Positions 21,821-44,238 of a stretch of DNA of 64,000 nt are shown here, piece by piece. The translations under genes and the position numbers were made by a program. Position 1 is the first letter of the stretch. The number at the start of each line of letters is the position of its first letter. The notes under the pieces were generated by a model. That model was not told the DNA's origin. It searched no databases and saw only the letters and a program-made list of their open reading frames with translations. The stretch covers positions 124,001 through 188,000 of the forward strand of contig NZ_JAKZHX010000013.1 of the NCBI RefSeq assembly GCF_022568815.1. The letters run 5' to 3'. Source of the stretch: Undibacterium paludis (GTDB taxonomy: Bacteria > Pseudomonadota > Gammaproteobacteria > Burkholderiales > Burkholderiaceae_D).

Positions 21821-24800
21821 ATGTGGTTTGTTGGTGGAATCGTCGGTTTCATCCTTGGCGTTGCTGCAGACTCTGGTGCAGCGATGTTCCTGCTTGCATT
21901 GCTGGGCGCTTTTGTCGGGCACATGATCAGCAGATCACGCAACGCGGAACAGCCCAAGCCGGCCAGTACCCAGCGGCCAATTCAGACGGGTGTCAACGAT
22001 TCGCTTGCAGAAATGCGCCAGAAGATTGCAAGGCTGGAAGGTAGATTACAAACGCTGGAACGTGAGATGGCTGAGCTCAAGGCCGGTAGTCTGGTCGCGG
22101 CGCCTGATAATTCTATTGCTGTCTCAGCTGGTGCTGCGCTTGCGCCCGAACCAGACTCAGTTGAGTCTGCCCCAGATATTGCTTTTGTAACAGCCCAGTC
22201 CCCTGAGCCCGCCTTAAGTCTGTCTTTGCCAGCAGAGCCAGTCAGTGAATTTGAACTTGATGCACAGAGTATACAGACGCCATCACAGCTAGACAAACCA
22301 CAAGAACCTGAGTTGCAGCTCAATGATTTTGGCAATAAGATTTTTGAAAAAAATGCAACGGATGGCCCGGGTTTGCCAGAAGAGTTGCAGGCGCCAGCTC
22401 TGGCCACCGCCAGCCTGACTCAGGAGACAGCAGGCAAAGAGCAGCTCAAGAATGCGACTCAATCAAGTGCAGCGACCAAGCGAATTCCGCCACCGCCACC
22501 CAAGACTTTCAGGGAAAGCCTGCCAGCGCCACTGGCCAGGCTCATCTTTGGCGGCAATACCCTGGTCAAGGCGGGCGTATTGATCCTGTTCCTGGGTCTG
22601 GCTTTCTTGCTCCGCTATACGGCAGAACGGGTGACTGTACCTGTGGAATTGCGATATGCCGGCGTGGCGATGACGGGTGTGGTATTGCTGGGATTGGGCT
22701 GGTTCTTGCGCAAGCGGCGCAGGGATTATGCGCTTATCCTGCAAGGTATGGCGGTAGGTGTTTTTTATCTGACCACGCTCTCGGCGATGAAGATGCATGC
22801 CCTGGTTTCACCAGAGGCAGGTTTTGGTTTCATGTTCCTGGTATCGGTCCTGAGCGCCATTTTAGCTGTCTTGCAAAATGCGCCTATGCTGGCCATAGTT
22901 GCCGCACTTGAAGGTTTTGCCACGCCTGTGTTGACTGCGACAGGGGAAAACCGCCCCATGGGCTTGTTCACCTACATGGCAGTACTGGATGTGGGCATTT
23001 GCCTGGTTGCCTGGTTCAATGCCTGGCGGGTTCTCAACCTTATCGGTTTTGTCGGCACCTTTACGCTGGCGCTGGGTTGGGCAGACAAATATTATACCGA
23101 TGCTCAATATGGCATCGTCCAGCCCTTCCTGATTTTCTATTTTGTCCTGTTTGCCTTGATAGGTCTGTTCTTCGCACGCAAGACATTGCAGCAAGCGCAG
23201 GCAGAGGAGGGGCCGCTGGCCAGTCTGAAGCGTGTTGGCCGTGTCGATAGTGCCCTGGTCTTTGGAAATCCTGTTACTGCATTTGGTCTTCAATACATGC
23301 TGGTAAGGCATACTGAGTTTGGTGCGGCCTTTTCTGCACTGGCAGTCGGTTTCTTTTATTTGCTGCTGGCCAGACTGGTGTTTTCACGGGCAAAACAGGG
23401 ACTGGCCTTGCTGGCCGAGGCCTATGTCATCGTTGCAGCCATTTTTGCAACCCTGGCTATCCCGTTGGGACTGGAAGGTATCTGGACCGGTGCGGCCTGG
23501 GCCGTAGAAGGCGCCGGCATGTATTGGCTGGGCATACGGCAGCAACGGCCTTACGCGCGTGGTTTTGCCTATGTGGTCATGCTGGGGGCTGCATATAAAC
23601 TTTTGCATGGTATCTACATCAATCCGGAAGCCGGGCAGCCACTGTTGCAGGGCAGTTGGCTGGGACCAGTCCTGTTGGCTTTGAGCTGTTTTACCGTCTG
23701 GAATTTGCACAGAAGGGCAGCGCAAGAGCAGATCGCCAATTGGGAGCAATTGCCAAATGCCGGTTTGCCATGGTTGGGTGTTGCGGCAATCAGTTTATTG
23801 CCCTGGATGTTCCTGCCTTCGCAGTTTGCTGCAGCGGCTCTGGCTTTGATGGCGTTACCGGTTGCAGCAGCAGGCAGGCGCATTGCTGTTGCAGCCTTCC
23901 GCCATATCTCGGCCACCCTGCAGGCGTTTGCCCTGGCCAGTTTCATGCTGACCTTGCACGCTGCAAGCGCAGAAACCAGTAATGCTGCACTGGCAGATGG
24001 CTGGCGCGGCGGATTGGCCGCAGTGATGATTGCCGGCAGTATCTTGTATAGTGCCGGACGCTCCATGCTGGCGGCAAAACGTGCTGCGCAGGCGCAAGCC
24101 TTGCCGCCGTCCTGGTCAGTCTGGAATAGCCTGGCGGTAATCAGTGGTACAACGTTGCTGCATCTGGCCATGTTATTTGCCATCGATTTGACGCAGGCCG
24201 CGGCGATCTGGCCAGTGACTTCCTGCCTGTTGCTGTGGGTCGGCTTGCGTATGTCGCATTCTGCATTGGCGGCTTTTGCCGGCAGCCTGCAAGTCGTATC
24301 TGCCTTTCTGTCTATGGTGAATCCGGGGCAATATCAGGGAGTGGCTTTTGCACATCTGGGTTTCCTGACGCCTTTGTCCCTGGCGTTGAGTGCATGGTTC
24401 AGCGCTGACCGGATACGTGCGGAAGCAGTCCGGATGCGCGAGGTCTTGTCGGCAATGCCTGCGCAATATCAGACTGCTGCAGAAGATCTGGGTATAAAAC
24501 CATCCCCGGTCTGGATCAATCAGTGGTGTGACGGGGCGCTTGCTCTTGGCTTGCCCATTTTGTGGGGATTAAGTTGGTGGATGACTGCATGGTTTCCGGA
24601 AAGCCTGGAAACACTGGAGCGTACCGGGCACCGTGATTACTCATCTTTTGTTGCCGTGATGATAGGGCTGGGAACGACCGTCCTCATGTCTGCACTGGCC
24701 GCCTGGCGGAAATGGCCACAAATGGGTAAAGCCAGTCTGGTGGGGCTGCCATTATTCATGTTTGCGGCCCTGATAGGTTTGTTTGGTTCCAGTGATATTT

Positions 24801-25753
24801 ATCTACCGTCTGCTCATCTGGGCTGGCTGGCCTGGCCCCTGGCTCTGGCGTGGCATCTGCAACTTTTGAAGAAACAGCAGACTTGGTGCTCTGGCTGGCC
24901 AGGCGTTTTGAAATCAATGCACATTCTGGGTTTCTGGTTTTTCCTGCTGCTGGCTGCCCGCGAAGGCCAGGCCCGTCTGGCGCCATTGGCTGACACCTGG
25001 TCTAGCTGGCCTTTGCTAGGCTGGATATTGGTGCCGGCGCTGGTGTTCTGGTTTATTGGTGCAAAACCTCTGGCAGGACGCTGGCCTTTGCTCATGTATC
25101 GCAAGACATATATAGAGCATGCTTGCGCGCCGGTTGCCCTGTATTTGCTGGTCTGGTGCTGGACGACCAATGCTGGTAGTGCCGGTAATGCCAGCCCTTT
25201 ACCTTATTTGCCGCTTCTTAATCCCCTTGAACTGGGGCAGTGGCTGGTAATGGCTTCTCTGCTGCACTGGTGGCGTGCCCTGTCCGCTGCGACTGTGACT
25301 ACCGATGGTAAAAATATCGCAAGCGCGGTGACTGCCGTGACGGCGCTGGCTCTGCTAACTGGCATGGTATTGCGTAGCTGTCATCATTTTGCCGACGTGC
25401 CTTGGGATGCTGACGCCATGTTTGCATCACGTCTCAGCCAGGCTGCCGTATCAATTACCTGGGCTGTCTGTGGTGTGGCAGTGATGCTGTTTGGGAATCG
25501 CCGCATGTCGCGTGGCATCTGGATAGCCGGTGCAGCATTGCTGGCCGTGGTCGTCCTGAAGCTGTTCCTGGTCGAACTGGCTGATCGCGGAGGCTTGTAC
25601 CGCATCGTGTCGTTTATTGGTGTTGGTATTCTGTTGCTGGTCGTTGGTTATTTCGCCCCTGTTCCTGTCAAGCCAAAAAATGATGTGGCTATGTCGGATG
25701 ATGCACAGACCAGTTCGGCAGGGTCGCAAACCACGCAGGAGAAACACCAATGA
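21821..25753 (+). CDS. DUF2339 polytopic membrane protein
   Basis: A 1,310-residue integral membrane protein. An N-terminal hydrophobic helix is followed by a short coiled coil (DSLAEMRQKIARLEGRLQTLEREMAELK), a Ser/Pro/Glu-rich linker to about residue 220, PPPPPKTFRESLP, and then more than 20 membrane helices to the C-terminus. Length and layout fit DUF2339 (predicted membrane protein). The function of the family is unknown, and links to envelope or export processes have been suggested. Its stop overlaps the start of the DUF3999 gene by four bases, a conserved pairing that suggests a two-protein complex in the inner membrane. Confidence 0.9.
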   Translation: MWFVGGIVGFILGVAADSGAAMFLLALLGAFVGHMISRSRNAEQPKPASTQRPIQTGVNDSLAEMRQKIARLEGRLQTLEREMAELKAGSLVAAPDNSIAVSAGAALAPEPDSVESAPDIAFVTAQSPEPALSLSLPAEPVSEFELDAQSIQTPSQLDKPQEPELQLNDFGNKIFEKNATDGPGLPEELQAPALATASLTQETAGKEQLKNATQSSAATKRIPPPPPKTFRESLPAPLARLIFGGNTLVKAGVLILFLGLAFLLRYTAERVTVPVELRYAGVAMTGVVLLGLGWFLRKRRRDYALILQGMAVGVFYLTTLSAMKMHALVSPEAGFGFMFLVSVLSAILAVLQNAPMLAIVAALEGFATPVLTATGENRPMGLFTYMAVLDVGICLVAWFNAWRVLNLIGFVGTFTLALGWADKYYTDAQYGIVQPFLIFYFVLFALIGLFFARKTLQQAQAEEGPLASLKRVGRVDSALVFGNPVTAFGLQYMLVRHTEFGAAFSALAVGFFYLLLARLVFSRAKQGLALLAEAYVIVAAIFATLAIPLGLEGIWTGAAWAVEGAGMYWLGIRQQRPYARGFAYVVMLGAAYKLLHGIYINPEAGQPLLQGSWLGPVLLALSCFTVWNLHRRAAQEQIANWEQLPNAGLPWLGVAAISLLPWMFLPSQFAAAALALMALPVAAAGRRIAVAAFRHISATLQAFALASFMLTLHAASAETSNAALADGWRGGLAAVMIAGSILYSAGRSMLAAKRAAQAQALPPSWSVWNSLAVISGTTLLHLAMLFAIDLTQAAAIWPVTSCLLLWVGLRMSHSALAAFAGSLQVVSAFLSMVNPGQYQGVAFAHLGFLTPLSLALSAWFSADRIRAEAVRMREVLSAMPAQYQTAAEDLGIKPSPVWINQWCDGALALGLPILWGLSWWMTAWFPESLETLERTGHRDYSSFVAVMIGLGTTVLMSALAAWRKWPQMGKASLVGLPLFMFAALIGLFGSSDIYLPSAHLGWLAWPLALAWHLQLLKKQQTWCSGWPGVLKSMHILGFWFFLLLAAREGQARLAPLADTWSSWPLLGWILVPALVFWFIGAKPLAGRWPLLMYRKTYIEHACAPVALYLLVWCWTTNAGSAGNASPLPYLPLLNPLELGQWLVMASLLHWWRALSAATVTTDGKNIASAVTAVTALALLTGMVLRSCHHFADVPWDADAMFASRLSQAAVSITWAVCGVAVMLFGNRRMSRGIWIAGAALLAVVVLKLFLVELADRGGLYRIVSFIGVGILLLVVGYFAPVPVKPKNDVAMSDDAQTSSAGSQTTQEKHQ

Positions 25754-27216
25754 AAATCAAGCATTTGCTTGTCAGCCTTGCCTGCCTTCATTTGACATGT
25801 AGCACAGGCTTTGCTCAGGTATCGACCAGCCAGACGGTAACCCGCTCTGCACAGCGCGCGGTTATTTCGGTGACAGGCAGCGGACCTTACTATCAACTTG
25901 ATATTCCTGCGACTATCTATCCTGGCAGCTTGCAGCCGGATTTGAGCGATGTGCGCGTACGCAATGCAACCGGTGATTTATTGCCTTTTGCCTGGACTGA
26001 TACAGACAGCGAGTCTGTGCAGTTGGAGAGCAAAACTGTCAATCTGTTACCCTTAAAAGACAATCAGAGTAGCAGCATCAGCAGCTTTACGCAAAAGCAC
26101 GACGGCTCTTTGGTACTGATATCGACTGTGAAGATCGATCGACAAAATCCGGTGCCTGCATGGATATTGGATGTCAGTCAGGTCAAGGGAGGTTTATTGC
26201 AAGCCAGGTTCAAGCTTGCTGACAAGGCAGAGGGCATGTTTGGATTCAGCCTGGAGAGCAGTGCAGATTTGAAGAACTGGCAGACCGTCAGCAATAACGA
26301 ACAACTCGTACAGCTTCGTCACAACGGCGCCCTGGTGCAAACACTGGACGTCGCATTACATCATGTAGAAGCACACTACCTGCGCTTGCGCTGGAATAAC
26401 CCTGAGTACGCTCCCTGGATCGAGAGTGTAACGATTGACAGTCAGCAGCAGATTTACATTCCTCCTGCTTTACAGTGGAGCAAAGCCATCAGCGTAAAGT
26501 CCTGTAGCACAAATTACTGCGATTATGATGTGCCGGGCAATACACCCATAAACAGTTTGCGGATTCTCAACAGCGAGTCAAACACTCTGGCCAGGGTGAG
26601 CGTGCTGGGGCAGCTTGCAGCGGTTAGTCCGGGATCGTCTTATCATCACCGCCATAGCCCGCTTTACCCATTACATGTCTTAAGACATCAGAGGCGTGCT
26701 GTAGAAGCACAGTCAGGCCGCGAAGTATGGCTTAATGAAACCCTTGTGTACCGCATCAGTCAGCCCAATGGAGAAGCAAAATCCCCGGATCTGTTGATGG
26801 ATGGTGCAACTTACCAGGGGCTGCGCTTGCAGACGGATGGGCCTGTAAGTATGTTGGGCAAGGTACCGCCTTCGATACAGATTGCCAGTTTGCCACGCAG
26901 GCTGGTGTTTCTTGCCCGTGGTGATGGACCTTATAGCCTGGAATGGGGGGCGCCGGTCAAAGATGGTGCAGCCGCAAGTTTACGTACGCTGATGCCACAT
27001 ATGGATTTGGCCACCTTGGCGAAAACGGATGCCGCCAAGGTGGAGATTGCCGAGTATGTCGCCACAAAGCCACAAAAAAATATCGAACCCATACCTGCCA
27101 AAGAACACAAGCCATGGTTGTGGGCTGCCCTGGCTGCGGGTCTGGCTTTGCTGGGGGCAATGGTCTGGTCATTATTGAAAAACATGTCTGCCGAGGCTGG
27201 CAATGAGAAGAAATGA
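25750..27216 (+). CDS. DUF3999 exported, membrane-anchored protein
   Basis: A 488-residue protein with a signal peptide (MKIKHLLVSLACLHLTCSTGFAQ), a large beta-rich periplasmic region, and one membrane helix at the C-terminus (WLWAALAAGLALLGAMVWSLL) with a short cytoplasmic tail. The ISVTGSGPYYQLDIPATIYPGS opening and WGAPVKDG region fit DUF3999. Overlap with the DUF2339 gene (ATGA) implies coupled translation and a common complex. The function is unknown. Confidence 0.88.
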   Translation: MKIKHLLVSLACLHLTCSTGFAQVSTSQTVTRSAQRAVISVTGSGPYYQLDIPATIYPGSLQPDLSDVRVRNATGDLLPFAWTDTDSESVQLESKTVNLLPLKDNQSSSISSFTQKHDGSLVLISTVKIDRQNPVPAWILDVSQVKGGLLQARFKLADKAEGMFGFSLESSADLKNWQTVSNNEQLVQLRHNGALVQTLDVALHHVEAHYLRLRWNNPEYAPWIESVTIDSQQQIYIPPALQWSKAISVKSCSTNYCDYDVPGNTPINSLRILNSESNTLARVSVLGQLAAVSPGSSYHHRHSPLYPLHVLRHQRRAVEAQSGREVWLNETLVYRISQPNGEAKSPDLLMDGATYQGLRLQTDGPVSMLGKVPPSIQIASLPRRLVFLARGDGPYSLEWGAPVKDGAAASLRTLMPHMDLATLAKTDAAKVEIAEYVATKPQKNIEPIPAKEHKPWLWAALAAGLALLGAMVWSLLKNMSAEAGNEKK

Positions 27217-29172: not shown

Positions 29173-29376
29173 AATATTTCTCCGGCAATGTTGAATTGAC
29201 CGCTATTTTACGTCCCCGCCCGCATTAAGGGAAACGGATAAAACAAGAATTGAGCTGTTTTTCCACTTCTGCTCCGGCCATTGTCAGATTTTTCTTCATC
29301 GATAATCCAGTATAAGAAGTTCCGGCATGGCAGGGCCCGCGATGACGGTGAACGACTATCAGATCAGGAGTGCAGA

Positions 29377-32300
29377 ATGGACAGCAATCAGGCGTTGTTA
29401 AATAAATTATCTCTGGGGGATTATCCCCTTGGTCGCCTCGGTGATCGCAAAGACGATTATTTGCCATCAGAAGAGGCGATCGAGTCCAATACCCGCATTG
29501 ACGTGAAAGGTATTCGTGAAGCTATTGCGCGGGTGGAAGCGGAAGCCAGGGCCACGGTCGCCAGTGAAGCAAGGTTGAAGGCGGAAACCGAGGCACGTGC
29601 GCTGGCAGAAGCCAGGGCGCAAGCCGAAGCAGAAGCTGCCGAACTGGCACAGCGCAAACTGGCATTGGAACAGGAGGCCATTGCCAGTACTAAAGCAAAA
29701 TTGATGGCAGAACGTCAGTCCCGCGCCGCCAGTGCTGCCAGAATTGCTGCTACCGCTGAAGAAACCAGAAATCTTCAAGAGCGCGCTTTGATAGAAGCGC
29801 GCGCACGGGAGCAATCAGAGCAACGTAATAAACTTGAGCTGGAAGCGAAAGAAAAGGCAGAAAACCAGCTTAAAGCAGAGGCAGAACTGACATCCCAGGC
29901 GCATGCAGAGGCACAGAAGCTTGAAGCCCAAACGGCCAATGCCCGTAACTGGGCGGCGGAACGCCTGGCAGCATCGCAATCGGCCCGTCAGCAGGCAGAA
30001 GAGCGTGCTCGTGCTGACGCGCGTATTGCAGAATTGGCACGTGAACGCGAAAAACGTGACCGTGAAGCCCGCGAAACAGCAGAAATGCTTGCCAAGGTAC
30101 GCAGCGAATCCCTGCAAATCAGTAAAGAGCGTGACCAGGCAGAAGCTATTGCACTGGAATATGCTATCAACCGCGCCCCGGTAGAGGTGCGTGCCCGTGA
30201 AGATGCGCTGGCCCGCGTTGCTCTGGAGCAAGAGCAAGAAGCTATCGCTCAGGCCAGGATGGAATCGGAAAGAAAGGCCGCCGAAGCAATACAGCTGCGC
30301 ATGCAGTCCGAGGAAGATTTGCGTATTGCCGCCGGCAAGCGCGAACAGGCAGAAAAAATCGCTGCTGCCACTGCCCAGGCACGTCGTGAGGCGGAAGACA
30401 AAATCCGTATGGTGACAGAGTCGCGCATAAGGGCCGAGCGCGAGCTGCAGACAACCGCAATGTCCCGCATAGAAAATGAGCAGCAAGCTGACTTGCAGGC
30501 ACGCGCCCGCCAGGAAACCGAAGCGGCACTGGCTGAAGAGGCACGCCAACGTCGTCTGGCAGAACAGGAGGCTGCCGACATGGCCCGTCAGCGTATCGCC
30601 GAAGAGCAGCGCGCCGCTCAATTGGCCAATGAGCGCGTGGAGATCGAGCGTGTTGCGGTACAGGAGGCGCGTGAAAAAGCCGATGCCGAGCAACAGGCGT
30701 TGAGTGCAGCGGCCTTTCAGGCTGAATTATTGAAAAGAGCCAATCAGGTGGCAGCAGAAAATGCCAAAAGAGCCGTAGAACTGGCTCTGGCAGAACAAAA
30801 ACGCCAGGAAGCAGAGCAGAAAGCCGCAGCAGCGCTGGAAGCAAAGCTCAATGCCGAACGCAAAAAAGCAGAAGAAGCACAAGCCTTGGCAGAAGCCGAA
30901 CAATCACACACTGAAATACTGCGTCTGCAACAACAGGCTGAGCATGCTCGTCGTATTGCCCAGGAATCTGAATGTGTAGCGAAAAAACTGAGCCTGGAAA
31001 AAACTATGGAACAGGTGGAATTGCAGCAAAAAATGGCGGCGGCGGCCGCCAAGAAAAATCATGATGCGACTGAACTCTTGCGCGTCCAACAGCAACGCAC
31101 TAATGATGAGGTGAAAGCGATGGAACTTCAGGAAGAAAAATTACAGGCAGAGCGTCGCCGTGCCCAGGCAGTGCAGCAAGTGCTGAAAGCGACCCAGGAA
31201 AAACTGCAACTTGAGCAGGCTGCGCAACAAGAAGCAGAAGCCAGATTGCGTGCTGAAGAAGAAGTCAAGGCAATTGCCATGGCTAAAGAGCAGGCTGAGC
31301 GCGAACACAGGCTGGCGCTGGAGGCGACTGCCAGCGCAGAGAAATGTGCGCTGGAGCAGACAGAATTGCAAAAAGAGGCACAATCCAAGATTGCCAAAGT
31401 CGCCGTATTGAAGAGCCATCAGGCGACTGAGATGGCACGTGCTGAGCAGATGCATCTGGAAGCAGAAAAGCAGGCCGCTAGAGCAGCACAAGACAAACTC
31501 GAAGCGGAAAAGCTTGCTGCTGAGAAAGTTATCGCCCGCGCGCAGGCCGATCGTGAGCATATCAACGTCCTCAACGCGCGTCAGCAACAAGAGGCTGATG
31601 CCCGTGCAGCTCGCCAGGCCATGATCGCGGCTGAGCAAGTGCGTCTGAAAAAAATGCAGGAGCATGCAGAGTTGCAGAAGCAATCAGCGACACTGGCACA
31701 AAGCAAGGCAGCAGAAGCTGAAGAACTTGGGAAAACACTGAAACTGCGTGCCGAATCCGAACAAAAAGCCCTGAGTCTGGTCCAGCAAAAACTAGAAGCT
31801 GAAAAACGCCTGACTGCAGAATTGCAGGCCAAGGCAAGCCTTGAACAAGAGCAGCGTGATCAACACCTGGCCCGTTTGCAATCAGAGCAGGCCTTGCGCT
31901 CCGCGCTGGAAGCAAAAGTCGCTGAAGAGAAAAAACTGCTGGAGCAAAATAATGAACAGGCAAGGGCAGAGCAACAGGCTGCAACGGCTGCCAGTGCCCG
32001 GGTAAAGGCTGCCACGCAATTGGCTAAACTAGAGCAGGAAAAGGCCAGGTCACAACAACAGGCAGCTCAGGCTCTGGAAGAGCAGGCCAGCCTGGAAAAA
32101 CAAAGGGCAGAAGCAGCGAAGGCAGAAGCGCAGGCTGCTGCTGAGAAACTTGCGGCTGAAAAAGTCGCCAGTGAAGCTGCTGCCGCCAAGGCAAAGGCGG
32201 AGCAGCAATATGCACAAGCGGCAGCCGTCAGGGCCAGGGCAGAGCAAGAAGCCAGCGAGTTGGCTGCTGCAAAACTGTTGGCGGAACAGACCTTACAAGT

Positions 32301-34956
32301 GCAGGCACAGGCCTATGCTGCCAGCCAGCACAAAGCTCATGAGCTGGTCCTGGAAAAGAACAGGAAGGTTGCAGAGCTTGATGCCGTATTGCAGCAACGC
32401 CTGGCTGATGATCAGGCACTGCTGGAAACCACTGAAGCGAAACTCCAGGCTGAGCAAGAGATACAGCAACAAGTAGAGAGCCGCCTGGCAAGTGAAACCG
32501 AAGCACGTCAATTTGCCGAAGCACGTGCCCGTGCAGAAAAAATCATTCGTGTCGCTACTGAGGCGACACTGGCATCAGAAAAAGCCCTGTTCCAGGAACT
32601 GGCCGCCCATGCTGATGCACAGAACCTGGTTGCCGAGCTGCTGGCGCAACGTCTGCAGCAGGAAACCGAACTCCTTAATGCACAAAAACAGCGCGCAGAA
32701 GCAGAGCAAGCCGTGCTTGACAGCCTGACAGCCAAACAACAGGCAGAATTGGCTGCGAAAACCGAAGCAGAGACACGCCTGGCAGCAGAGCAAGAACAGT
32801 GCAGGATGATTGCTGCTCGCCAGACAGCTGAAGCAGAAGCGCGACAACTGGCTGAAAAATTCAATGAGACCGAGAAACAGTGGCTGGCGCAAGCTGCTGA
32901 GGAGGCATTGATCAAACGTCAGGCCGCTGTCGCCCTGGAAGAAAAAACAGCCTTGTTGCTGGAGTTGAGTCGTGCAGCTCAGGAACAAATAGCTATTGAA
33001 CAGCAGATCAGCATTGAGCTGAAGGCCAAGCTGGAACAGGAAGAATCAGCAGAAATTGCCCTGCAAGCCAAACTGGCGACAGAACGTGAATTTGCAGAGG
33101 CCGCAGCGCAACGTGCTGCTGTTGAGCAAGAAGCACTGGAAGCAGCACTCAGACTTGCCAATAACGAACAAACTCTGCTGGCACGCTCAATGGAGCATAC
33201 AGAGGCGCAGCGTATTGCCAGTGAAGCCATTGAAGCCAGGTTGCGTGAAGCCGAGGCTTTGGCATATACAGAAAATAAACGTGCGACAGCTGAACTGGAA
33301 ACGCTGAGCCTGGTGCAGCAAAAACTCGCTGCGGAACAAAAAGCCTCACTAGAAGCAGAGCAACGCCAGCAGGCTGAGCAAGAGTATCTGGATCTGGCCG
33401 TGATACGCGCCAATGCCGAACAGGATGCTCATGTGGCGATTCAGGCCAGATTGCAAAGTGAAAAAGAAGCCGCAGAATTGGCAGAAGCATTGGCTGTCTC
33501 TGAAAAACAGGCAACGGAATTAGCGCAAGCACGAGCAGAAGAGCTATTCGCCCTGCAACAAGCCCAGCAGCAACGTGCAGAAATCGAACAACTGGAAATC
33601 ATCGCTGCCCAACAACAGAAACAAATTGAAATGGACAGCATGCAACTCAAGCAGGATGCATTGCACCTGATCGAAGAAAAAATGGAAGCTGAACGCCTGG
33701 TCATTGCTGCCAGTGAAGAGCGTGTACGTCTTGAAGCGGAATTGGCAGAGCAAAGCAGGCAAAGAGCTGAGCAACTGGTTGTGGCAAATGCGCTGGAACA
33801 GCAAAGACTCGACCTGGAACGCGAAATTGCCGAAGCAACGGCTTTGCAAATTGCCGCTGATGAGCAAGCCTTGCCAGACCTACGTGCAAAATTGCTCAAG
33901 GAAAGTAAGCTGGAAGAATTGGAGGCCCAAAGGCGTGAAAGAGAACAACTGCTGGCAGATGTCATTGCCCAACGTGTAGAAGAAGAAAATACCTTGTTGG
34001 CAGAGCTCGATCAAAAGCTGGCAGATGAAGCCGAGTTGCATGCAGAAGTGCAGGCCGAATTGCAACGCAAACTTGATGCGGCTGAAGAACAAAGGAAAGT
34101 TAAAGAACAAGCCTTGAATGATGCTATCGCCAAGCGCATGGAAGAAGAGTCGGAATTGCAGACCCAGATTGATGCACAATTGGCTGGCGAGGTAGCACTG
34201 CAGACACAGTTGAAGCAGCAACTGCAAGCAATCGCTGCACAAACCAAGGAGAAAGAGCTGGCTTTGGCTGCTGCAAATGCCCAGCGCATCGCTGACGAAC
34301 AGGCTCTGCAAGTCAAGCTGGAACAACAACTGGCACAAGAATCTGCATTGCAAGCCATGGTAATGCAACGTGCTGAGCAACAGGTGGCAGCCCAGGCTTT
34401 GATCGCACAGGCGCTGGCTGAAGCTCAGGCGTGGCAAGAAAAAAACAGGCAGCAAATCCAGCAGCAGCAAGATGATTTGCAGGCCGAGGCAGAAATGGCC
34501 AAACAGACACTGGAGGCTGAACATCACGAAGCAGAGCAGCTTGCCCAGGCGCTGATCAATAAATTGCTCACCAACAAAAATCACTCAGAAGAGTGGCGTC
34601 AACAGGTTGAGCAAATCCTCGCTACAGCACCGGTTGATATCGCCTACGACCCACAGGCACATCAAGATGAAGTGCAAAAACGCTTCCGCCTGCGTCCTTC
34701 AGTCATCGCTGGTTTGTTATTGTGTGCAGGTATTGCAGGGTTTGCCGGATTTAACGGTCTTGGTGTTGCCAGTACTGCGACAGCCCGTACAGCTGTGCAA
34801 AAAACAGCAGCATTGGAAGTAACCGTCCCTGGGCAAAAAATCGATACAGACTTGCATATGAGTTACGAATTAACTGCACCGACAGTTACAACTCCGGCTC
34901 AGGCTGAAGATGGAAGCAAGCCCGCAGTACAGTTGGCTCTGGCGGGGAGTCGCTAA
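29377..34956 (+). CDS. Giant coiled-coil protein with C-terminal membrane anchor
   Basis: A single open frame of about 1,859 residues. After a short N-terminal segment (MDSNQALLNKLSLGDYPLGRL) the protein is almost entirely Ala/Glu/Gln/Lys/Arg-rich helix, with heptad-like hydrophobic spacing and hardly any Gly or Pro up to about residue 1,720. One membrane helix (SVIAGLLLCAGIAGFAGFNGLG, about 1,779-1,800) and a tail of about 60 residues follow. The predicted topology is a long cytoplasmic rod anchored in the inner membrane. The start has AGGAG six bases upstream. It has no recognisable enzymatic domain. It could be a cytoskeletal, scaffold or polarity protein. TolA-like or SMC-like labels from similarity searches would reflect composition only. 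Confidence 0.85.
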   Translation: MDSNQALLNKLSLGDYPLGRLGDRKDDYLPSEEAIESNTRIDVKGIREAIARVEAEARATVASEARLKAETEARALAEARAQAEAEAAELAQRKLALEQEAIASTKAKLMAERQSRAASAARIAATAEETRNLQERALIEARAREQSEQRNKLELEAKEKAENQLKAEAELTSQAHAEAQKLEAQTANARNWAAERLAASQSARQQAEERARADARIAELAREREKRDREARETAEMLAKVRSESLQISKERDQAEAIALEYAINRAPVEVRAREDALARVALEQEQEAIAQARMESERKAAEAIQLRMQSEEDLRIAAGKREQAEKIAAATAQARREAEDKIRMVTESRIRAERELQTTAMSRIENEQQADLQARARQETEAALAEEARQRRLAEQEAADMARQRIAEEQRAAQLANERVEIERVAVQEAREKADAEQQALSAAAFQAELLKRANQVAAENAKRAVELALAEQKRQEAEQKAAAALEAKLNAERKKAEEAQALAEAEQSHTEILRLQQQAEHARRIAQESECVAKKLSLEKTMEQVELQQKMAAAAAKKNHDATELLRVQQQRTNDEVKAMELQEEKLQAERRRAQAVQQVLKATQEKLQLEQAAQQEAEARLRAEEEVKAIAMAKEQAEREHRLALEATASAEKCALEQTELQKEAQSKIAKVAVLKSHQATEMARAEQMHLEAEKQAARAAQDKLEAEKLAAEKVIARAQADREHINVLNARQQQEADARAARQAMIAAEQVRLKKMQEHAELQKQSATLAQSKAAEAEELGKTLKLRAESEQKALSLVQQKLEAEKRLTAELQAKASLEQEQRDQHLARLQSEQALRSALEAKVAEEKKLLEQNNEQARAEQQAATAASARVKAATQLAKLEQEKARSQQQAAQALEEQASLEKQRAEAAKAEAQAAAEKLAAEKVASEAAAAKAKAEQQYAQAAAVRARAEQEASELAAAKLLAEQTLQVQAQAYAASQHKAHELVLEKNRKVAELDAVLQQRLADDQALLETTEAKLQAEQEIQQQVESRLASETEARQFAEARARAEKIIRVATEATLASEKALFQELAAHADAQNLVAELLAQRLQQETELLNAQKQRAEAEQAVLDSLTAKQQAELAAKTEAETRLAAEQEQCRMIAARQTAEAEARQLAEKFNETEKQWLAQAAEEALIKRQAAVALEEKTALLLELSRAAQEQIAIEQQISIELKAKLEQEESAEIALQAKLATEREFAEAAAQRAAVEQEALEAALRLANNEQTLLARSMEHTEAQRIASEAIEARLREAEALAYTENKRATAELETLSLVQQKLAAEQKASLEAEQRQQAEQEYLDLAVIRANAEQDAHVAIQARLQSEKEAAELAEALAVSEKQATELAQARAEELFALQQAQQQRAEIEQLEIIAAQQQKQIEMDSMQLKQDALHLIEEKMEAERLVIAASEERVRLEAELAEQSRQRAEQLVVANALEQQRLDLEREIAEATALQIAADEQALPDLRAKLLKESKLEELEAQRREREQLLADVIAQRVEEENTLLAELDQKLADEAELHAEVQAELQRKLDAAEEQRKVKEQALNDAIAKRMEEESELQTQIDAQLAGEVALQTQLKQQLQAIAAQTKEKELALAAANAQRIADEQALQVKLEQQLAQESALQAMVMQRAEQQVAAQALIAQALAEAQAWQEKNRQQIQQQQDDLQAEAEMAKQTLEAEHHEAEQLAQALINKLLTNKNHSEEWRQQVEQILATAPVDIAYDPQAHQDEVQKRFRLRPSVIAGLLLCAGIAGFAGFNGLGVASTATARTAVQKTAALEVTVPGQKIDTDLHMSYELTAPTVTTPAQAEDGSKPAVQLALAGSR

Positions 34957-35152: not shown

Positions 35153-35371
35153 TCACTCTGGCATAGACCGATACAGTTCTTCTACTTTTGTGCGCGCCCA
35201 GGGTGTCTTGCGCAAAAACTTCAAGCTGGATTTAATGCTCGGATCACTTGTGAAGCACCTGATCTCGATCATCTTGCCCAGTTGCTCCCAGCCATAGTGG
35301 GCCACCAGTTGTTCCAGGATGGCTTCTAGTGTCATGTGTTGCAGGGTGCGTGGGGTGAGTGGCTGCTTCAT
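35153..35371 (-). CDS. VF530-family DNA-binding protein
   Basis: A 72-residue protein matching the VF530 (DUF2132) family: [54 protein letters not shown] is the whole domain. The family has a small helical fold with reported DNA-binding character and no known pathway. A gene alone on its strand, between the coiled-coil gene and the secretion cluster. No ribosome site stands out. Confidence 0.88.
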
Positions 35372-35966: not shown

Positions 35967-36410
35967 GTGAGCGGAACATTACATTACAGTCCGGGTTATC
36001 CCCAATTGCGCAAATCATCAGGTTTTACCTTGCTTGAATTGCTGGTTGTCGTGGTGATCATAGGGTTGCTTGCATCTTATGTAGGCCCCAAATATTTTTC
36101 GCAAATAGGTAAATCAGAGGTGGCTGTTGCCAAGGCGCAAATTACGGCTTTCGAAAAAGCGCTGGAAACCTATCGTGTTGATCTGGGACGGTTCCCCACA
36201 AGTGAGGAGGGGCTCGCGGCATTGCTGGAGAATCCATCGGCAAATGCCAAATGGAGTGGCCCTTATATGAAAAAATCGATACCCATGGACCCGTGGGGGC
36301 ATCCTTATAAATACCAGTCACCTGGCAAGGACAAGGATTTTGAAATCATCTCTTACGGTAAGGATGGCGTAGCCGGTGGTACAGGTGATGATGCCGACAT
36401 TAGTAACTAA
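35967..36410 (+). CDS. gspG: Type II secretion major pseudopilin GspG
   Basis: Main subunit of the periplasmic pseudopilus. The 147-residue protein has the prepilin peptidase site SSGFTLLELLVVVVIIGLL with the +5 glutamate. The conserved GspG body follows: LGRFPTSEEGLAALLENP, GPYMKKSIPMDPWGHPYKYQSPG and the calcium-site-like end GGTGDDADISN. The GTG start has AGGTG upstream. It is the first gene of a long operon that continues through gspF, gspE and T4P-like assembly genes. No prepilin peptidase gene is in the window. Confidence 0.95.
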   Translation: MSGTLHYSPGYPQLRKSSGFTLLELLVVVVIIGLLASYVGPKYFSQIGKSEVAVAKAQITAFEKALETYRVDLGRFPTSEEGLAALLENPSANAKWSGPYMKKSIPMDPWGHPYKYQSPGKDKDFEIISYGKDGVAGGTGDDADISN

Positions 36411-36443
36411 AGCTTTTAGCGCAAATTTTTTTCATACTACACT

Positions 36444-37646
36444 ATGCGCTTCAAGATCAGGGCGTTGACGCCAGACCAGGATATCGTCGAAGAGGTAATT
36501 GAAGCGCGAAATGAAGATGAGGCGCGCCAGTTACTGCGGTCTCGTGGCTGGGCTATTTCTTCCATACAGCAAACAAGTGCCTCTTCTTTGGGGCACTTGT
36601 TTCGTCTTGGGGCGCGTTCCGGAAAATTTTCCCTTCTGCTGTTCAGCCAGGAATTACTATCCCTGTTGCGTGCTGGTCTGACTATTGTGGAGGCTCTGGA
36701 AGCCTTGCTTGAGAAAGAGCAGAACCAGGAAATTCGTACGGTATTGTCCAAGGTGCTGACGGGCTTGCAGGAAGGGAAGCGTTTTTCGCAGGTGCTGTCG
36801 GAACAGGAAAATTATTTTTCTCCGCTATTCATAGGCATAGTCCAGGCGTCTGAGCGTACCAGCAGCTTGCAGCCTTCACTTTCTCGCTTTATTGAATATC
36901 AACAACGTATAGACGTTGTTCGTAACAAGATCATCAGTGCTCTCATCTATCCGACCATATTATTTCTGGTTGGTGGCGCGGTAAGCTTCTTTTTATTAGT
37001 CTATGTCGTGCCACGTTTTGCCGAAGTGTACAAGGGGACTGGCAGGGCGCTGCCCTGGTCTTCCCAAATGCTATTGCAATGGGGGAGCATGGTTACTGAA
37101 CATGGTTCCGTTTTTGCTGTGGTCGGTGTGGCATTGCTTGCCTCCCTTGGTTTTATAGTAGCCCGGATCTGGAAAAAAGGCGGCGCCCTGGGCCTGATTG
37201 GCAAGTTGCCTGGATTCAGTGATTCAATACGGGTCTACGCATTGTCCCGGCTTTACATTACCTTGGGTATGTTGCTTGATGGCGGCATCCCCATCGTCAC
37301 TGCCTTGACTACGGCTGAAAGCATGGTGAGCGAAAGCATGCGACTGGCCTTGCGTCAGGCGGGCAAGGCCATAGAGTCTGGCATCATGCTGTCAGACGCC
37401 TTTGAGCGCAATCAATTGACGACCCCCATTTCCCAGCGATTATTGAGAGTGGGCGAGCGTACCGGGGACCTTGGCGGGATGCTGACACAATCAGCCAATT
37501 TCTATGAAGGTGAGATCAGTCGATGGATAGACCGTTTTATACGCGGTTTTGAACCTGTTTTAATGGCCATTATTGGTCTTGTTGTGGGCACTATTGTTGT
37601 GCTTCTTTATATGCCTATATTCGACCTGGCGGATGGTCTTTCATGA
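36444..37646 (+). CDS. gspF: Type II secretion inner-membrane protein GspF
   Basis: Polytopic platform protein of the secretion machine, 400 residues. It has two GspF/PilC repeats: FSQELLSLLRAGLTIVEALEALLE in the first and LSRLYITLGMLLDGGIPIVTALTTA in the second. Three membrane helices are visible, with FLVGGAVSFFLLVYVVPRFAEVY in the middle and LMAIIGLVVGTIVVLLYMPIFDL at the C-terminus. Its stop overlaps the gspE start (ATGA). Confidence 0.95.
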   Translation: MRFKIRALTPDQDIVEEVIEARNEDEARQLLRSRGWAISSIQQTSASSLGHLFRLGARSGKFSLLLFSQELLSLLRAGLTIVEALEALLEKEQNQEIRTVLSKVLTGLQEGKRFSQVLSEQENYFSPLFIGIVQASERTSSLQPSLSRFIEYQQRIDVVRNKIISALIYPTILFLVGGAVSFFLLVYVVPRFAEVYKGTGRALPWSSQMLLQWGSMVTEHGSVFAVVGVALLASLGFIVARIWKKGGALGLIGKLPGFSDSIRVYALSRLYITLGMLLDGGIPIVTALTTAESMVSESMRLALRQAGKAIESGIMLSDAFERNQLTTPISQRLLRVGERTGDLGGMLTQSANFYEGEISRWIDRFIRGFEPVLMAIIGLVVGTIVVLLYMPIFDLADGLS

Positions 37647-39346
37647 ACAGCCCGCTTGCAAACTTGCCAGCGCCGGCAATTACCCCCGATTTCCTGATCA
37701 CGGTCAGGGATTATGCCAATCGGCATCAGGTCAGCATGTGGACAGCCATGCTGCAACTGACGCAAACCGATGCGCGCAGCTTGTTGGCCGTACTTGCACA
37801 ATTCTGCACCATGCCAGTTATCGAAACGGCAGAGATGCAATTGCTCGTGCCGGCCTTTGATCTGCTGCCTTTAAATAAAGCCATGCAAAAGCAGAGCCTG
37901 ATCCTGCGTGACAAACATGGTCTGCTGTTAGCCGTTTTGTCTGACCCATTTGATTCTGATGTGCAGGTTTGGCTGAACTCCATTGCGAAATCTGCCTTGC
38001 AGTTCAGGCTGTCCCTGAATACCGACATACAGGCTTTTTTGTCACTGCAGGAAGAGTCAGCCCGTACCACAGATAATCTGGCGCCGGCCGGTCCGCGTGA
38101 CAATGTTGAAAAACGCGAAAGCAAAGCCGCTACCAAATTGTCATTTGAATCCGTTTCGGAAGCCGGCAGCCCCGCAGTCAAGCTGGTGAACGCCACTTTG
38201 TATGATGCGTTGAAGGCCGGTGCCTCCGATATTCACCTGGAAAGTACTGCACAAGGGCTCAGTGTCAAATACCGTATTGACGGTGTGCTTGATCATATTA
38301 CTTCCACGGCGGGTATTGCTGACGCTGAGCAGGTGATATCCCGCCTCAAAGTGTTGGCTGAGCTTGATATTTCCGAACGCAGGGTTCCCCAGGACGGCAG
38401 TTTTTGTATCGAGGTCAACGACAGGGAAATCGATTTGCGGCTTTCCATCATGCCCAGCATTCATGGTGAAGATGCCGTTATCCGTATTCTTGACAAGCGC
38501 GCCATGGTCGAGGCTTATGGTGCCCTGAGTCTGGAAGCATTGGGGTTTGATGAAGCATCCCTGGTTACCTTGCGCATGCTGACCGAAGAACCTTACGGTA
38601 TGCTGCTGGTCACCGGACCTACGGGGTCAGGTAAAACGACAACTTTGTATGCAGCGCTGTCAGAGATCAATAGCGGGCGTGAAAAAATCATCACCATCGA
38701 AGATCCGGTCGAATATCAGCTGCCAGGTATTTTGCAAATACCTGTGAATGAAAAAAAAGGGCTGACTTTTGCCAAGGGCTTGCGTTCCATCCTGCGGCAT
38801 GATCCGGACAAGATCATGGTGGGTGAGATACGTGATCAGGAAACTGCAGAAATTGCTGTTCAGTCCGCTTTGACGGGGCATCTGGTGCTCACTACCGTCC
38901 ACGCCAATAATGTATTTGATGTGTTTGGTCGTTTTACGCATATGGGCATTGATCCCTATGCATTCGTCTCTGCATTGAATGGCATCTGGGCGCAGCGCCT
39001 GGTACGCATCAATTGCCCGCATTGTTCTACTATTGAACATGTTGATGAACAGATGCTCAAACGGGTCAATCTGACCCAGGCTGACGTGGTGGATTTTCAA
39101 TTCCGCAAAGGACATGGTTGTGGCGATTGCCGCGGTACCGGTTACAAGGGACGGCGTGCGATAGCAGAGATTCTGACCTTGACCGATGAGATTCGGGAAA
39201 TGATCATCGAAAAACGGCCGATCAGGCAGATCAAGGATGCAGCCCGTCGAAATGGAACAACTACCTTGCGCGAGGCTGCATTGGCCCTGGTCAAACGTGG
39301 CGACACAACACTGGAAGAAATCAAGAGGATTACGCTGCATGCTTAA
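37643..39346 (+). CDS. gspE: Type II secretion / T4P-type assembly ATPase GspE
   Basis: Hexameric ATPase driving pseudopilus assembly. The 567-residue protein has an N1/N2 domain, the SDIHLESTAQGLSVKYRIDGVL region, Walker A GPTGSGKTT at about residue 324, the Asp box IEDPVEYQLPGI, Walker B-like MVGEIRDQETAEIAVQSALTGH, and a zinc-binding pair of CxxC motifs (NCPHC, about 458; GCGDC, about 491). Length and the zinc module fit GspE/PilB. It overlaps gspF and the next gene. Confidence 0.95.
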   Translation: MNSPLANLPAPAITPDFLITVRDYANRHQVSMWTAMLQLTQTDARSLLAVLAQFCTMPVIETAEMQLLVPAFDLLPLNKAMQKQSLILRDKHGLLLAVLSDPFDSDVQVWLNSIAKSALQFRLSLNTDIQAFLSLQEESARTTDNLAPAGPRDNVEKRESKAATKLSFESVSEAGSPAVKLVNATLYDALKAGASDIHLESTAQGLSVKYRIDGVLDHITSTAGIADAEQVISRLKVLAELDISERRVPQDGSFCIEVNDREIDLRLSIMPSIHGEDAVIRILDKRAMVEAYGALSLEALGFDEASLVTLRMLTEEPYGMLLVTGPTGSGKTTTLYAALSEINSGREKIITIEDPVEYQLPGILQIPVNEKKGLTFAKGLRSILRHDPDKIMVGEIRDQETAEIAVQSALTGHLVLTTVHANNVFDVFGRFTHMGIDPYAFVSALNGIWAQRLVRINCPHCSTIEHVDEQMLKRVNLTQADVVDFQFRKGHGCGDCRGTGYKGRRAIAEILTLTDEIREMIIEKRPIRQIKDAARRNGTTTLREAALALVKRGDTTLEEIKRITLHA

Positions 39347-40157
39347 ATTCTTTTGTGACTCTTTGCAGGTTGACGTGTCTGATCAGCAAATTCAGGTTTG
39401 CCGACAGACGAAAAAAATAGGTTCGGCCAAATCACCTGAATCCGTCAGCATATTCCCTATCGATTCTGAATCGGATGTCAGTACATTTTGTGCGCAATGG
39501 CAACAGGCGATTTCCGGCCTGGAAAAACCTGCAAATTTGCTTGATATCAGTCTTGACGACACGATGGTCAGGTATTTCATGGTAGCACCGCCACCGCATG
39601 CACGCTCTTTCAAGGATCTGCATGCTGCAGCGACAATGCGGCTTGAGGCTTTGTTTGGTGTGGCCAGTGAAGACTGGCAGGTGACGGCTGACTGGCAAAT
39701 GCATGCGAACTCTCTTGCTTGCGGCATTCCCAAAATCTTGCTGAGTAAAATCAGCAAAGCAGCAAAGCAATCAGGTCAACACATATTGAGCCTGCAACCG
39801 CGTTTTATCCGTGCGTGGAATGCGTGTCAAAAAAAAATCTCGCCCGATACCTGGTTTGCATCTGTCGGAAAAGAGGTAATGACGCTGGCCTTGCAAAAGG
39901 GTGGACAGATCAAGAGTGTAAAAACGATTGCCTTGCCAGTCACTAATGACGAAACCTGGTTGCTTGAACAACTGCACAGGGAATCAATGTTGCAGCAACT
40001 GGATATGCCTTCCGAATTGCTGCTGTCGGGCGATGTGCCGGCAGCGTGGCTATGTAAGCTCATACAAAAAAATGCTTACGGCCAGCTTGCCATGAAAAGC
40101 CTGGCGGGCAAATCAGTCGATCAGCCTGAGTGCAAGCAGAAGGCCGAGATAGTATGA
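39339..40157 (+). CDS. PilM/GspL-like assembly protein (divergent)
   Basis: A 272-residue protein overlapping gspE by eight bases. It lacks a clear membrane helix. The alternating pattern (VDVSDQQIQVCRQ, LLDISLDDTMVRYFMVAPPPHARSFKDL, WFASVGKEVMTLALQKGG) resembles the actin-like fold of PilM or the cytoplasmic part of GspL. Its place just before PilN- and PilO-like genes supports that role, linking the ATPase to the inner-membrane complex. Sequence support alone is weak, so the call rests on context. Confidence 0.65.
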   Translation: MLKFFCDSLQVDVSDQQIQVCRQTKKIGSAKSPESVSIFPIDSESDVSTFCAQWQQAISGLEKPANLLDISLDDTMVRYFMVAPPPHARSFKDLHAAATMRLEALFGVASEDWQVTADWQMHANSLACGIPKILLSKISKAAKQSGQHILSLQPRFIRAWNACQKKISPDTWFASVGKEVMTLALQKGGQIKSVKTIALPVTNDETWLLEQLHRESMLQQLDMPSELLLSGDVPAAWLCKLIQKNAYGQLAMKSLAGKSVDQPECKQKAEIV

Positions 40158-40711
40158 GCAAGCCCATATACATAGAATTTTCGCCTGAGTCGGTGATGAA
40201 ACGTGTGCAAGACATGTCTTTGTCAACCTGGGTGCTTGCCGTGCTGGTCCTTGTCGTGTTGACGGGTGTAACCTGGCATGGCAGCAAGTTGTTGCAAAAG
40301 AAAGCGCGTATTGACGACAGTGTGAGTAATTTGCAGATCGATATTCAAAAAGCAGAAAAGAAAGTCGGCAAGGAGCCTGTTTTTAAATTGCCCCAAGAGC
40401 AGGCAGTGGCTGTTAACCAGGCAATCGCCAAGCTCAACATTCCATGGACAGATTTGCTGGACGCGCTGGAGCAGGCAAGCACGGATAAGGTCGCTATTTT
40501 GCAAATTACGCCAAACGCACAAAAGATGAATGTAAAGTTGATGGCAGAAGCAAAAAACAGCGACGACATGATTGCCTATGTTGAGACATTGAAACAACAG
40601 AAAATGTTTGTATCTGTCATCCTTGAAAAACACGAAATCAATGAGCAAGACCCGAATAAGCCTTATCGTTTTCAAATTGAAATGTTGTGGCGGGACGGGG
40701 TGCGGCAATGA
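40154..40711 (+). CDS. PilN-like inner-membrane assembly protein
   Basis: A 185-residue bitopic protein: short cytoplasmic start (MSKPIYIEFSPES), membrane helix at about 25-43 (WVLAVLVLVVLTGVTW), a coiled-coil segment (IDDSVSNLQIDIQKAEKKV), then a ferredoxin-like periplasmic domain (WTDLLDALEQASTDKVAILQITP). This is the PilN/GspL-C layout. Start and stop overlap both neighbours by four bases, so the operon is tightly coupled. Confidence 0.78.
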   Translation: MSKPIYIEFSPESVMKRVQDMSLSTWVLAVLVLVVLTGVTWHGSKLLQKKARIDDSVSNLQIDIQKAEKKVGKEPVFKLPQEQAVAVNQAIAKLNIPWTDLLDALEQASTDKVAILQITPNAQKMNVKLMAEAKNSDDMIAYVETLKQQKMFVSVILEKHEINEQDPNKPYRFQIEMLWRDGVRQ

Positions 40712-41316
40712 TCAGGATGAATACCGCTAGCAAAATTTCGCCAGGACAATTCCAATTAAAACTTGAATTCGCGCTCCATTATCTGGGGTGGGCAAAATCC
40801 ATCCTGTTAATGGCTTTGTTGTTGGCAGCAACAGGATGGTGGGTAGGTGTACCCTATATGCAAAGGCAAATCTACCAGCTGGAAGAGCGCAAGCTGAGTC
40901 TGCAAGCAAATCGCCAGCAATTGATACAAGAAAAAAAAGAACCGCCGCTCGACGATAACCTCGTACGGTTGAATGCTTTTCATGAAATGCTGGGTGAAAA
41001 AAAGCATGTGGAACAACAGGTCAAGACCATACTGTCCCTGGCAAATGAGTCGGGCATTAACCTGAAGGCCGGTGAATACCAATTGTCGGAAAACAGTGCC
41101 GGCAAATATTTCAGCTATCGTGTGCAATTACCGGTCAAGGCCAGCTATTCGCAAATTCGCAAGTTTACTGAGCAAGTCTTGCTGGCAATCCCCTATGCAT
41201 CCCTGGATGAGATGTCATTCAAGCGCGAAGCTGTCAGTGGTGTGGCAGTTGATTCAAAACTGGTATTTACCATTTACCTCAGTGCGGGTGACAACGCCAA
41301 AGGGGGCTTTGAATGA
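40708..41316 (+). CDS. PilO/GspM-like inner-membrane assembly protein
   Basis: A 202-residue bitopic protein with a membrane helix at about 29-50 (SILLMALLLAATGWWVG), a coiled coil (LEERKLSLQANRQQLIQEKKE), and a periplasmic ferredoxin-like domain (YFSYRVQLPVKASYSQIRKFTEQVLLAI), the PilO signature. It would pair with the PilN-like protein to form the alignment complex below the secretin. Overlaps of four bases on both sides indicate coupling. Confidence 0.78.
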   Translation: MIRMNTASKISPGQFQLKLEFALHYLGWAKSILLMALLLAATGWWVGVPYMQRQIYQLEERKLSLQANRQQLIQEKKEPPLDDNLVRLNAFHEMLGEKKHVEQQVKTILSLANESGINLKAGEYQLSENSAGKYFSYRVQLPVKASYSQIRKFTEQVLLAIPYASLDEMSFKREAVSGVAVDSKLVFTIYLSAGDNAKGGFE

Positions 41317-41852
41317 ACTCGCGGAAACTGATACTGGCATGCGCACTTGTCGTGGCGGCGTGGTTTGCTTTTTTTGCAGATAAGACGCCAGAAACAGCAA
41401 TTGTCGAAGCAGCACCTGCAACTGTTAAAAAAGTGCAGACAGCAGAGGCAGGCAGTGGTGTGAGAATACCAGCACAGGGTGCAAAGCCAGTGAATGTTGT
41501 ACCGGCGATTGCGAGCATCATAGACAGAAAAACCTTGATCAACTCTGATTATAAGAACAGCCAAAGTTTTTTTGGAGCGCAAAGCTGGACACCTCCGCCG
41601 CCACCCGCAGCTGCGCCGCCACCTCCGCCGCCACCGACGGCGCCGCCTTTACCATTTAAATACCTGGGTAAGAAATCGGATGACGGACAATTGGAGGTTT
41701 ACCTGGCCAATGGTGAGCGCACTTATATCGTCCAGGAAAAAACCATCATCGACAATATCTACCGTGTAGACAGTATCAAACCAAGCACGATGAGCTTGAC
41801 CTACCTGCCATTGAATCAGGTACAAACTTTGCAAATTGGTAGTGCAGATTAA
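41313..41852 (+). CDS. PilP/GspC-like periplasmic linker protein
   Basis: A 179-residue protein with an N-terminal membrane helix (LILACALVVAAWFAFFA), a flexible stretch, a marked polyproline run (about residues 91-111, PPPPPAAAPPPPPPPTAPPLP), and a small C-terminal beta domain (FKYLGKKSDDGQLEVYLANGERTYIVQEKTIIDNIYRVDSI) of the HR/PilP type. The C-terminal domain should bind the N0 domain of the secretin encoded next. The proline run probably acts as a rigid spacer across the periplasm. Confidence 0.75.
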   Translation: MNSRKLILACALVVAAWFAFFADKTPETAIVEAAPATVKKVQTAEAGSGVRIPAQGAKPVNVVPAIASIIDRKTLINSDYKNSQSFFGAQSWTPPPPPAAAPPPPPPPTAPPLPFKYLGKKSDDGQLEVYLANGERTYIVQEKTIIDNIYRVDSIKPSTMSLTYLPLNQVQTLQIGSAD

Positions 41853-41878
41853 TTTGCAGAATAATTTATTGAGTATTT

Positions 41879-44218: not shown

Positions 44219-44238
44219 CAGATTGCGGATATAGCCAG

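Follow-up and report, generated by a model that had tools for sequence, protein, structure and literature searches.

We analysed a 64,000-nucleotide stretch of the genome of Undibacterium paludis (contig NZ_JAKZHX010000013.1, positions 124,001 to 188,000 of the forward strand; hereafter the window), in which one very long gene encodes a predicted membrane-anchored helical rod. The features of this gene, in window coordinates, are:

29366..29370 (+): AGGAG, six bases before the ATG, read directly from the sequence
29377..34956 (+): the rod gene, 1,859 residues, stop codon included; an open frame with an MDxNQ start, present in a single copy in its own genome
29377..29496 (+): short leader, residues 1-40, MDSNQALLNKLSLG..., read from the sequence and its recurring MDxNQ start
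29497..29568 (+): conserved N-box, residues 41-64, IDVKGIREAIARVEAEARATVASE, with several invariant columns in alignment A1
29515..34626 (+): helical rod of 14-residue (2 x 7) repeats, residues 47-1750, from the periodicity and from AlphaFold2 (AF2) helix at both sampled ends
29890..29958 (+): stutter-like break, residues 172-194, where the register moves by +10 in total (3 modulo 7), from the phase model
29956..34056 (+): 1,367 residues without a heptad break, residues 194-1560, from the phase model at four penalties and a window scan
30178..30180 (+): Pro268, in the box RAPVEVRARE; Pro in 50/56 aligned proteins, with a dip in AF2 confidence around it
34552..34641 (+): C-box LI.KL.........WR..VEQ.LA.APV, residues 1726-1755, with Leu and Trp invariant in alignment A2
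34696..34749 (+): predicted single transmembrane helix, residues 1774-1791, after basic KRFRLR, from hydropathy and AF2 helix
34750..34953 (+): predicted disordered periplasmic tail, residues 1792-1859, from AF2 and the positive-inside rule
34852..34872 (+): peptide LHMSYEL, residues 1826-1832, family motif LxMSYxL, from the tail alignment

The AGGAG is probably the ribosome-binding site. The ATG at 29377 was preferred over an earlier TTG at 29281 because of the spacing from this element and because the MDxNQ start recurs among relatives. No signal peptide was seen by eye in the leader. The N-box that follows it has the consensus (I)DxKxIREAIARVEAEAxATVAxE, in which many columns are invariant or nearly so across 32 diverse members.

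The protein is laid out as a short leader, a helix of about 1,700 residues nearly devoid of proline and glycine, one membrane helix and a 68-residue tail. Four residues, Ala (23%), Glu (15.8%), Gln (12.4%) and Leu (10.9%), together make up 62% of it; only two prolines (268 and 1500) fall between residues 31 and 1740, and only three glycines between residues 46 and 1740. The first-pass annotation had read the locus as a single gene, and the frame is indeed open across all 1,859 residues. There is no sign of a frameshift, since all 25 Undibacterium loci fetched contain one open frame, of 1,701-1,997 residues. A tandem-repeat artefact in the DNA was rejected, the gene holding short weak arrays only and no near-identical tandem copies, and the antisense frames within it look like by-products of codon usage.

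The rod has a regular internal structure. AF2 modelled residues 40-375 as one unbroken helix almost throughout (pLDDT 86, with a dip near 250-270), and the autocorrelation of the rod sequence peaks at 14, 28 and 42 residues. A 14-state periodic model trained on the window protein itself gained 507 log units, as against 127-139 for three shuffles, and a 7-state model gained 262. A hendecad (11) repeat was rejected, its gain of 153 (98-110 when shuffled) lying far under that of the 14-residue model. Three shuffles were run per period tested, and they control the likelihood gain, not the number of breaks. Within the 14-residue unit one position is Arg or Lys in 69% of cases and the position four residues later is Glu in 68%, while the other positions of the apolar band hold Ala and Leu.

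The phase model of the window protein places eight shifts, the set being identical at four jump penalties. The stutter-like shift at about residues 172-194 is present in most relatives tested. Beyond it, the 14-residue phase flips by exactly 7 at residues 595, 909 and 1422; since these are exact half units, the heptad register remains unbroken from residue 194 to residue 1560. Further breaks fall in the C-terminal part of the rod. The rise of a helix is 0.1485 nm per residue, at which residues 194-1560 would span 203 nm and the whole rod (47-1750) about 253 nm. Two further statements of the first-pass annotation, that the protein is largely a helical rod and that an unbroken helix would approach a quarter of a micrometre, are thus borne out by some 1,700 helical residues with a 14-residue periodicity, modelled as helix by AF2 at both sampled ends. 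The flips themselves are conserved under the same phase model: the one near 595 was found in 17/17 relatives, soluble ones included, a net half-unit shift near 909 in 9/9 long relatives, and a flip near 1384-1427 in eight of these nine (in the other, L046, it lies at 1674). A complication is that in some Undibacterium rods (L047, L048 and L053) the longest break-free stretch is only 692-737 residues.

Conservation of spacing was followed in 56 aligned proteins, namely the window protein (P0001) and those of 55 loci found with its C-terminal 160 residues; of the 66 other genomes with a match, 58 were fetched, and L073 and L074 (no rod) and L051 (a fragment) were dropped. Because of this choice all 56 have the membrane helix and tail, and the sample is non-random. 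The spacing from residue 268 to residue 594 is exactly 327 residues in 54 of the 56, and that from 268 to 730 exactly 463 residues in 50. The rod varies in length between about residues 730 and 1700. Its middle section (690-1345) is of constant length in 25 of 26 Undibacterium proteins, a length shared by one protein from another genus (L058), and among the 30 proteins with another length the difference is a multiple of 7 in 23. Counted as distinct length differences, 7/13 are multiples of 7 (binomial p ~0.001) and 4/13 multiples of 14 (p ~0.01). The rule fails at both ends of the rod, where 5/19 (1300-1725) and 2/8 (47-268) distinct differences are multiples of 7. The fixed spacings and the mid-rod length differences in sevens point to selection acting on the geometry of the rod, which is more constrained than the first-pass annotation knew. 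Neutral growth of a low-complexity repeat, with the long part of the protein lacking a selected function, would accommodate the variable section between about 730 and 1700, but we regard it as very unlikely, since it fits poorly with indel-free spacing across genera, with the conservation of the phase flips, with length changes by sevens and with the lack of near-identical tandem copies in the DNA.

The C-box directly precedes the membrane helix, and AF2 modelled this end of the protein as helices at 1696-1750, 1759-1769 and 1774-1791 (the membrane helix) followed by a disordered tail (mean pLDDT 71). A hydrophobic helix is found in 56/56 aligned proteins. Lys and Arg average 3.6 in the 20 residues before it and 1.1 after it, with an excess on the N-terminal side in 53 of the 56 proteins and ties in the other three. 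This bias predicts an N-in/C-out orientation, such that the rod would be cytoplasmic and the tail periplasmic. The earlier proposal of a single C-terminal membrane helix with the rod pointing into the cytoplasm therefore agrees with hydropathy, with AF2 and with the positive-inside rule. The tail ranges from 25 to 103 residues across the 56 proteins; 40 contain the motif L-x-M/L/I-S-x-x-L/I in strict form and the other 16 contain close variants by eye. No Pfam match was obtained for a TPR or peptidoglycan-binding domain in the 68-residue tail of the window protein at E <= 1.

Library searches gave no family for the protein. It has no match in Pfam at E up to 1 (nor have the 32 diverse members), none in NCBIfam and none in PHROGs at E <= 0.1; in the PDB the rod matched short designed coils only (E 0.03-0.4) and the C-terminus unrelated membrane stretches. 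The family is therefore unnamed in Pfam, NCBIfam and PHROGs, and it is undescribed among the literature matches listed for Oxalobacteraceae genera with coiled-coil, for Cds6/Csd6, for PodJ and for long coiled coils. An SMC-like protein was rejected for want of an ATPase domain in Pfam or NCBIfam. A phage tape-measure protein was also rejected, there being no PHROGs family at E <= 0.1 and the flanking genes of the 20-44 kb stretch being chromosomal by annotation. The earlier statement that no enzyme domain is present stands, as none was matched in Pfam or NCBIfam. That composition would defeat homology searches proved only half right: no library family is hit, but the terminal boxes and the fixed register allow the protein to be traced through 23 of 44 genera.

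This tracing used two profiles. Profile A1, covering the N-box and the first 300 residues of the rod, matched 178 of 294 Oxalobacteraceae genomes at E <= 1e-10, in the 23 genera just mentioned; the window protein, itself within the alignment, matches it with an E of 1.4e-128. Each of the 26 listed genomes of the same genus is matched, and the genus is missing from the 20 rows considered of the 116 non-matching ones. The named relatives, 90-91% identical over the initial part of the rod, are Undibacterium umbellatum and U. pigrum, which agrees with the family, Oxalobacteraceae, presumed in the first-pass annotation. At order level A1 matched 18/399 genomes (E <= 1e-5), of which nine belong to the same family, and at class level 1/369 (E <= 1e-8), which is the window's own genome. 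Among the nine order members outside the family, a C-terminal hydrophobic stretch with a motif-like tail occurs in L173, L180 and L179 (in two frames) and is absent from the other six; the weak matches outside the family could reflect a chance likeness of coils. Profile A2, covering the C-box, the membrane helix and the periplasmic LxMSYxL, is matched by the window protein and in 78 of the 178 rod genomes, a tally that leaves out five weak matches (E 2.5e-4 to 7.8e-4, short frames) and includes G071 (E 2.7e-5). Separately, a 1,200-residue frame of genus g30 (L186, genome G029) matches A2 (E 2.5e-8) and not A1.

In Janthinobacterium, Duganella, Rugamonas and Massilia the rod is shorter and soluble, ending at or just past the C-box, in many cases with VWRSR, and has no membrane helix. 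In ten such loci inspected by eye, none is encoded in any frame of the 450 bases that follow. In a tree of 98 rows (drawn from loci L031-L168 after dropping identical, truncated and short rows and L051, and labelled anchored or soluble by hydropathy), the 34 rows without a hydrophobic C-terminus, together with the borderline L144, make up a single, fully supported clade of 35. This single clade indicates that the membrane anchor was probably lost once, and since the rod was kept, not every role of the protein requires the tail. Soluble members are also what would be expected if the rod itself had a cytoplasmic target. The protein might then tether or coat an internal body (the nucleoid, a storage granule or a membrane), the Ala-rich apolar face binding its surface instead of, or besides, pairing with another helix. 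The position frequencies lend this some weight, as the apolar band is wide and Ala-rich and has charged residues inside it. Nevertheless, we consider it unlikely, since no phasin, DNA-binding or other Pfam match was obtained at E up to 1, and since the constant heptad register and the quantised length changes fit coiled-coil pairing better.

The surroundings of the gene differ between genera. In Undibacterium the rod gene adjoins a divergent upp in 17 of the 25 loci fetched, as it does in the window, and in seven of the remaining eight the nearest of the window's genes to be found is an aminotransferase. Upstream in the window, at 21821-27216 (+), lie genes for a DUF2339 protein (a membrane protein of 1,310 residues) and a DUF3999 protein with a four-base overlap, which accompany the rod in only the three closest of the 25 loci. 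Downstream, a 72-residue frame at 35153-35371 (-), which we take to resemble the small VF530/DUF2132 family, separates the rod gene from a secretion- or pilus-like cluster at 35967-44718 (+) in which Pfam identifies a T2SSG pseudopilin, a PilN-like protein and a secretin bearing a cohesin domain at its C-terminus. Three small genes of this cluster (39237-40157, 40687-41316 and 41313-41852) have no Pfam match. A role for the rod as a partner of the cluster was rejected, as a search of the 25 Undibacterium loci with the cluster genes did not find it in the roughly 5 kb that follow the rod. For the same reason it is highly improbable that the rod is a length ruler for such an envelope machine, although pseudopilin, ATPase and secretin genes begin at 35967, only 1 kb downstream, and the rod length is fixed in Undibacterium; no phage family was matched either.

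Outside Undibacterium a different arrangement recurs. In 20 of 30 such loci of the first set fetched (genus codes g23, g24 and g31) the two genes that come after the rod, on its own strand, encode first a TPR-Csd6_C and then a YkuD-Csd6_C protein, with the TPR match starting 136-339 bp downstream of the rod; the named genera with this order are Herminiimonas, Noviherbaspirillum and Paucimonas. Both proteins start, by eye, with an apparent signal peptide. At Herminiimonas-type loci two kinases lie directly upstream of the rod, one a hybrid kinase and the other a very large AAA-ATPase/histidine kinase (L063:8905-16043, -). The domain is called Cds6_C in Pfam, and Cds6 corresponds to HP0518, the Csd6 of Helicobacter pylori, according to an excerpt of PMC12880188. 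Parts of a second report describe Csd6 as a peptidoglycan L,D-carboxypeptidase for cell shape, with a deep, largely hydrophobic pocket in its NTF2-like domain (PMC4599014).

Across genomes, Csd6_C accompanies the anchored form of the rod. The domain is present in 75 of the 78 genomes with an anchored rod and in 17 of the 100 that have a rod but no match to the anchored C-terminus, 15 of these 17 being in g40; among the rod-bearing g40 genomes of the anchor-less clade, 15/25 keep it. A further 55 genomes have Csd6_C and no rod, indicating that the pair has rod-independent work, and 61 have neither. The correlation comes mainly from one clade, and as the anchor was probably lost in a single event we regard it as suggestive and not as independent evidence. 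In the window's own genome the TPR-Csd6_C/YkuD-Csd6_C pair lies at L184:2843-5220 (-), about 71 kb upstream of the rod gene, and this distance in Undibacterium counts against a coupling of rod and Csd6. Of the putative roles named in the first-pass annotation (a cytoskeletal, polarity or cell-shape scaffold), that in cell shape has circumstantial support from the Csd6-type neighbour genes, but one clade does without the membrane anchor.

The upstream genes allow another reading, in which the protein is a PodJ-like organiser of polarity or signalling, the rod gathering sensor kinases at one membrane site and the tail serving only to position it. In g23 and several g31 loci, genes for a hybrid histidine kinase and an AAA-kinase immediately precede the rod on its strand, and as characterised in passages of PMC8980812, PodJ has the same plan of cytoplasmic coiled coils, one membrane helix and a periplasmic end. 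However, the kinase gene of the g24 loci lies on the opposite strand and is less similar in sequence, the upstream gene in Undibacterium is upp or the aminotransferase, and the periplasmic domains of PodJ are absent from the rod protein. We therefore consider this reading possible, though doubtful.

The reading we tentatively prefer, while holding it short of probable, is an envelope-tethered cytoplasmic structural scaffold or spacer that is coupled to peptidoglycan trimming. Two or more copies would coil into a rod in the cytoplasm, where the conserved N-terminal box may bind a partner. If oriented as predicted (N-in/C-out), the C-terminal helix would hold the rod to the inner membrane and present the conserved LxMSYxL peptide on the periplasmic side. 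Its docking partner in the envelope would most likely be the periplasmic TPR-Csd6_C/YkuD-Csd6_C pair, and the rod would in this way link the trimming of peptidoglycan to a cytoplasmic site some 0.2 micrometre away. We infer the docking on Csd6-type proteins, and the link to trimming, from the gene neighbourhood and from the loss of both tail and pair in much of one clade. A bolder version of the scaffold, which we consider rather doubtful, would have the protein act as a ruler or mast: its unbroken register of about 200 nm would fix the distance of a cytoplasmic partner from a periplasmic Csd6-type complex, its length would evolve in sevens, and one clade would have cut the rod free, the Csd6 pair being lost as well in most of its genomes.

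The family is common in Oxalobacteraceae and keeps its geometry over a wide divergence of sequence. These features, together with the natural occurrence of anchored and unanchored rods, bring two questions within reach of a test, namely whether fixed-length coiled coils serve bacteria as rulers and how a cytoplasmic scaffold could reach peptidoglycan-trimming enzymes.

Several known systems share parts of this design. Crescentin, FilP and Scy, which are intermediate-filament-like bacterial proteins, have a long coiled-coil rod with a stutter-like break, as here, and the long heptad rod that characterises bacterial coiled-coil cytoskeletal proteins was found by both the periodicity and the phase model. 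The present protein differs from these three in being much longer and in having a 14-residue repeat, a membrane anchor and a periplasmic motif. TolA likewise combines one membrane helix with a long Ala-rich helix, but in the opposite layout, its membrane helix being N-terminal and its rod lying in the periplasm. In the Csd5/CcmA/Csd6 module of H. pylori, Csd5 is a membrane-bound link between the cytoskeleton and the wall. The neighbours of the rod share with this module the Csd6 C-terminal domain and a YkuD domain; however, no relation of the rod protein to Csd5 was detected, and Csd6_C occurs without a rod in the 55 genomes mentioned above.

In terms of length, passages of a 2005 survey of 22 proteomes name SMC, MukB, SbcC and Rad50 as the longest prokaryotic coiled coils (PMC1322226). 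Unlike these, the rod protein has no ATPase heads and no Pfam domain. That MultiCoil survey, in the portion cited, gives no predicted coiled-coil domain of more than 400 residues in the bacterial genomes it analysed (PMC1322226); the register of the rod is three times longer than this limit. The closest likeness in overall plan is to PodJ of Caulobacter crescentus, with its cytoplasmic coiled coils, one membrane helix and periplasmic C-terminal end; its clients are histidine kinases, and kinase genes adjoin some rod genes (PMC8980812, in part). According to the same excerpts, PodJ is 974 residues long and has, besides six coiled coils, a disordered region, as compared with a rod of about 1,700 residues in near-constant register, and it carries its own periplasmic TPR and peptidoglycan-binding domains (PMC8980812). 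The rod protein, compared with it by layout and domains, has instead a short disordered tail, and its TPR and peptidoglycan-enzyme genes are separate neighbours.
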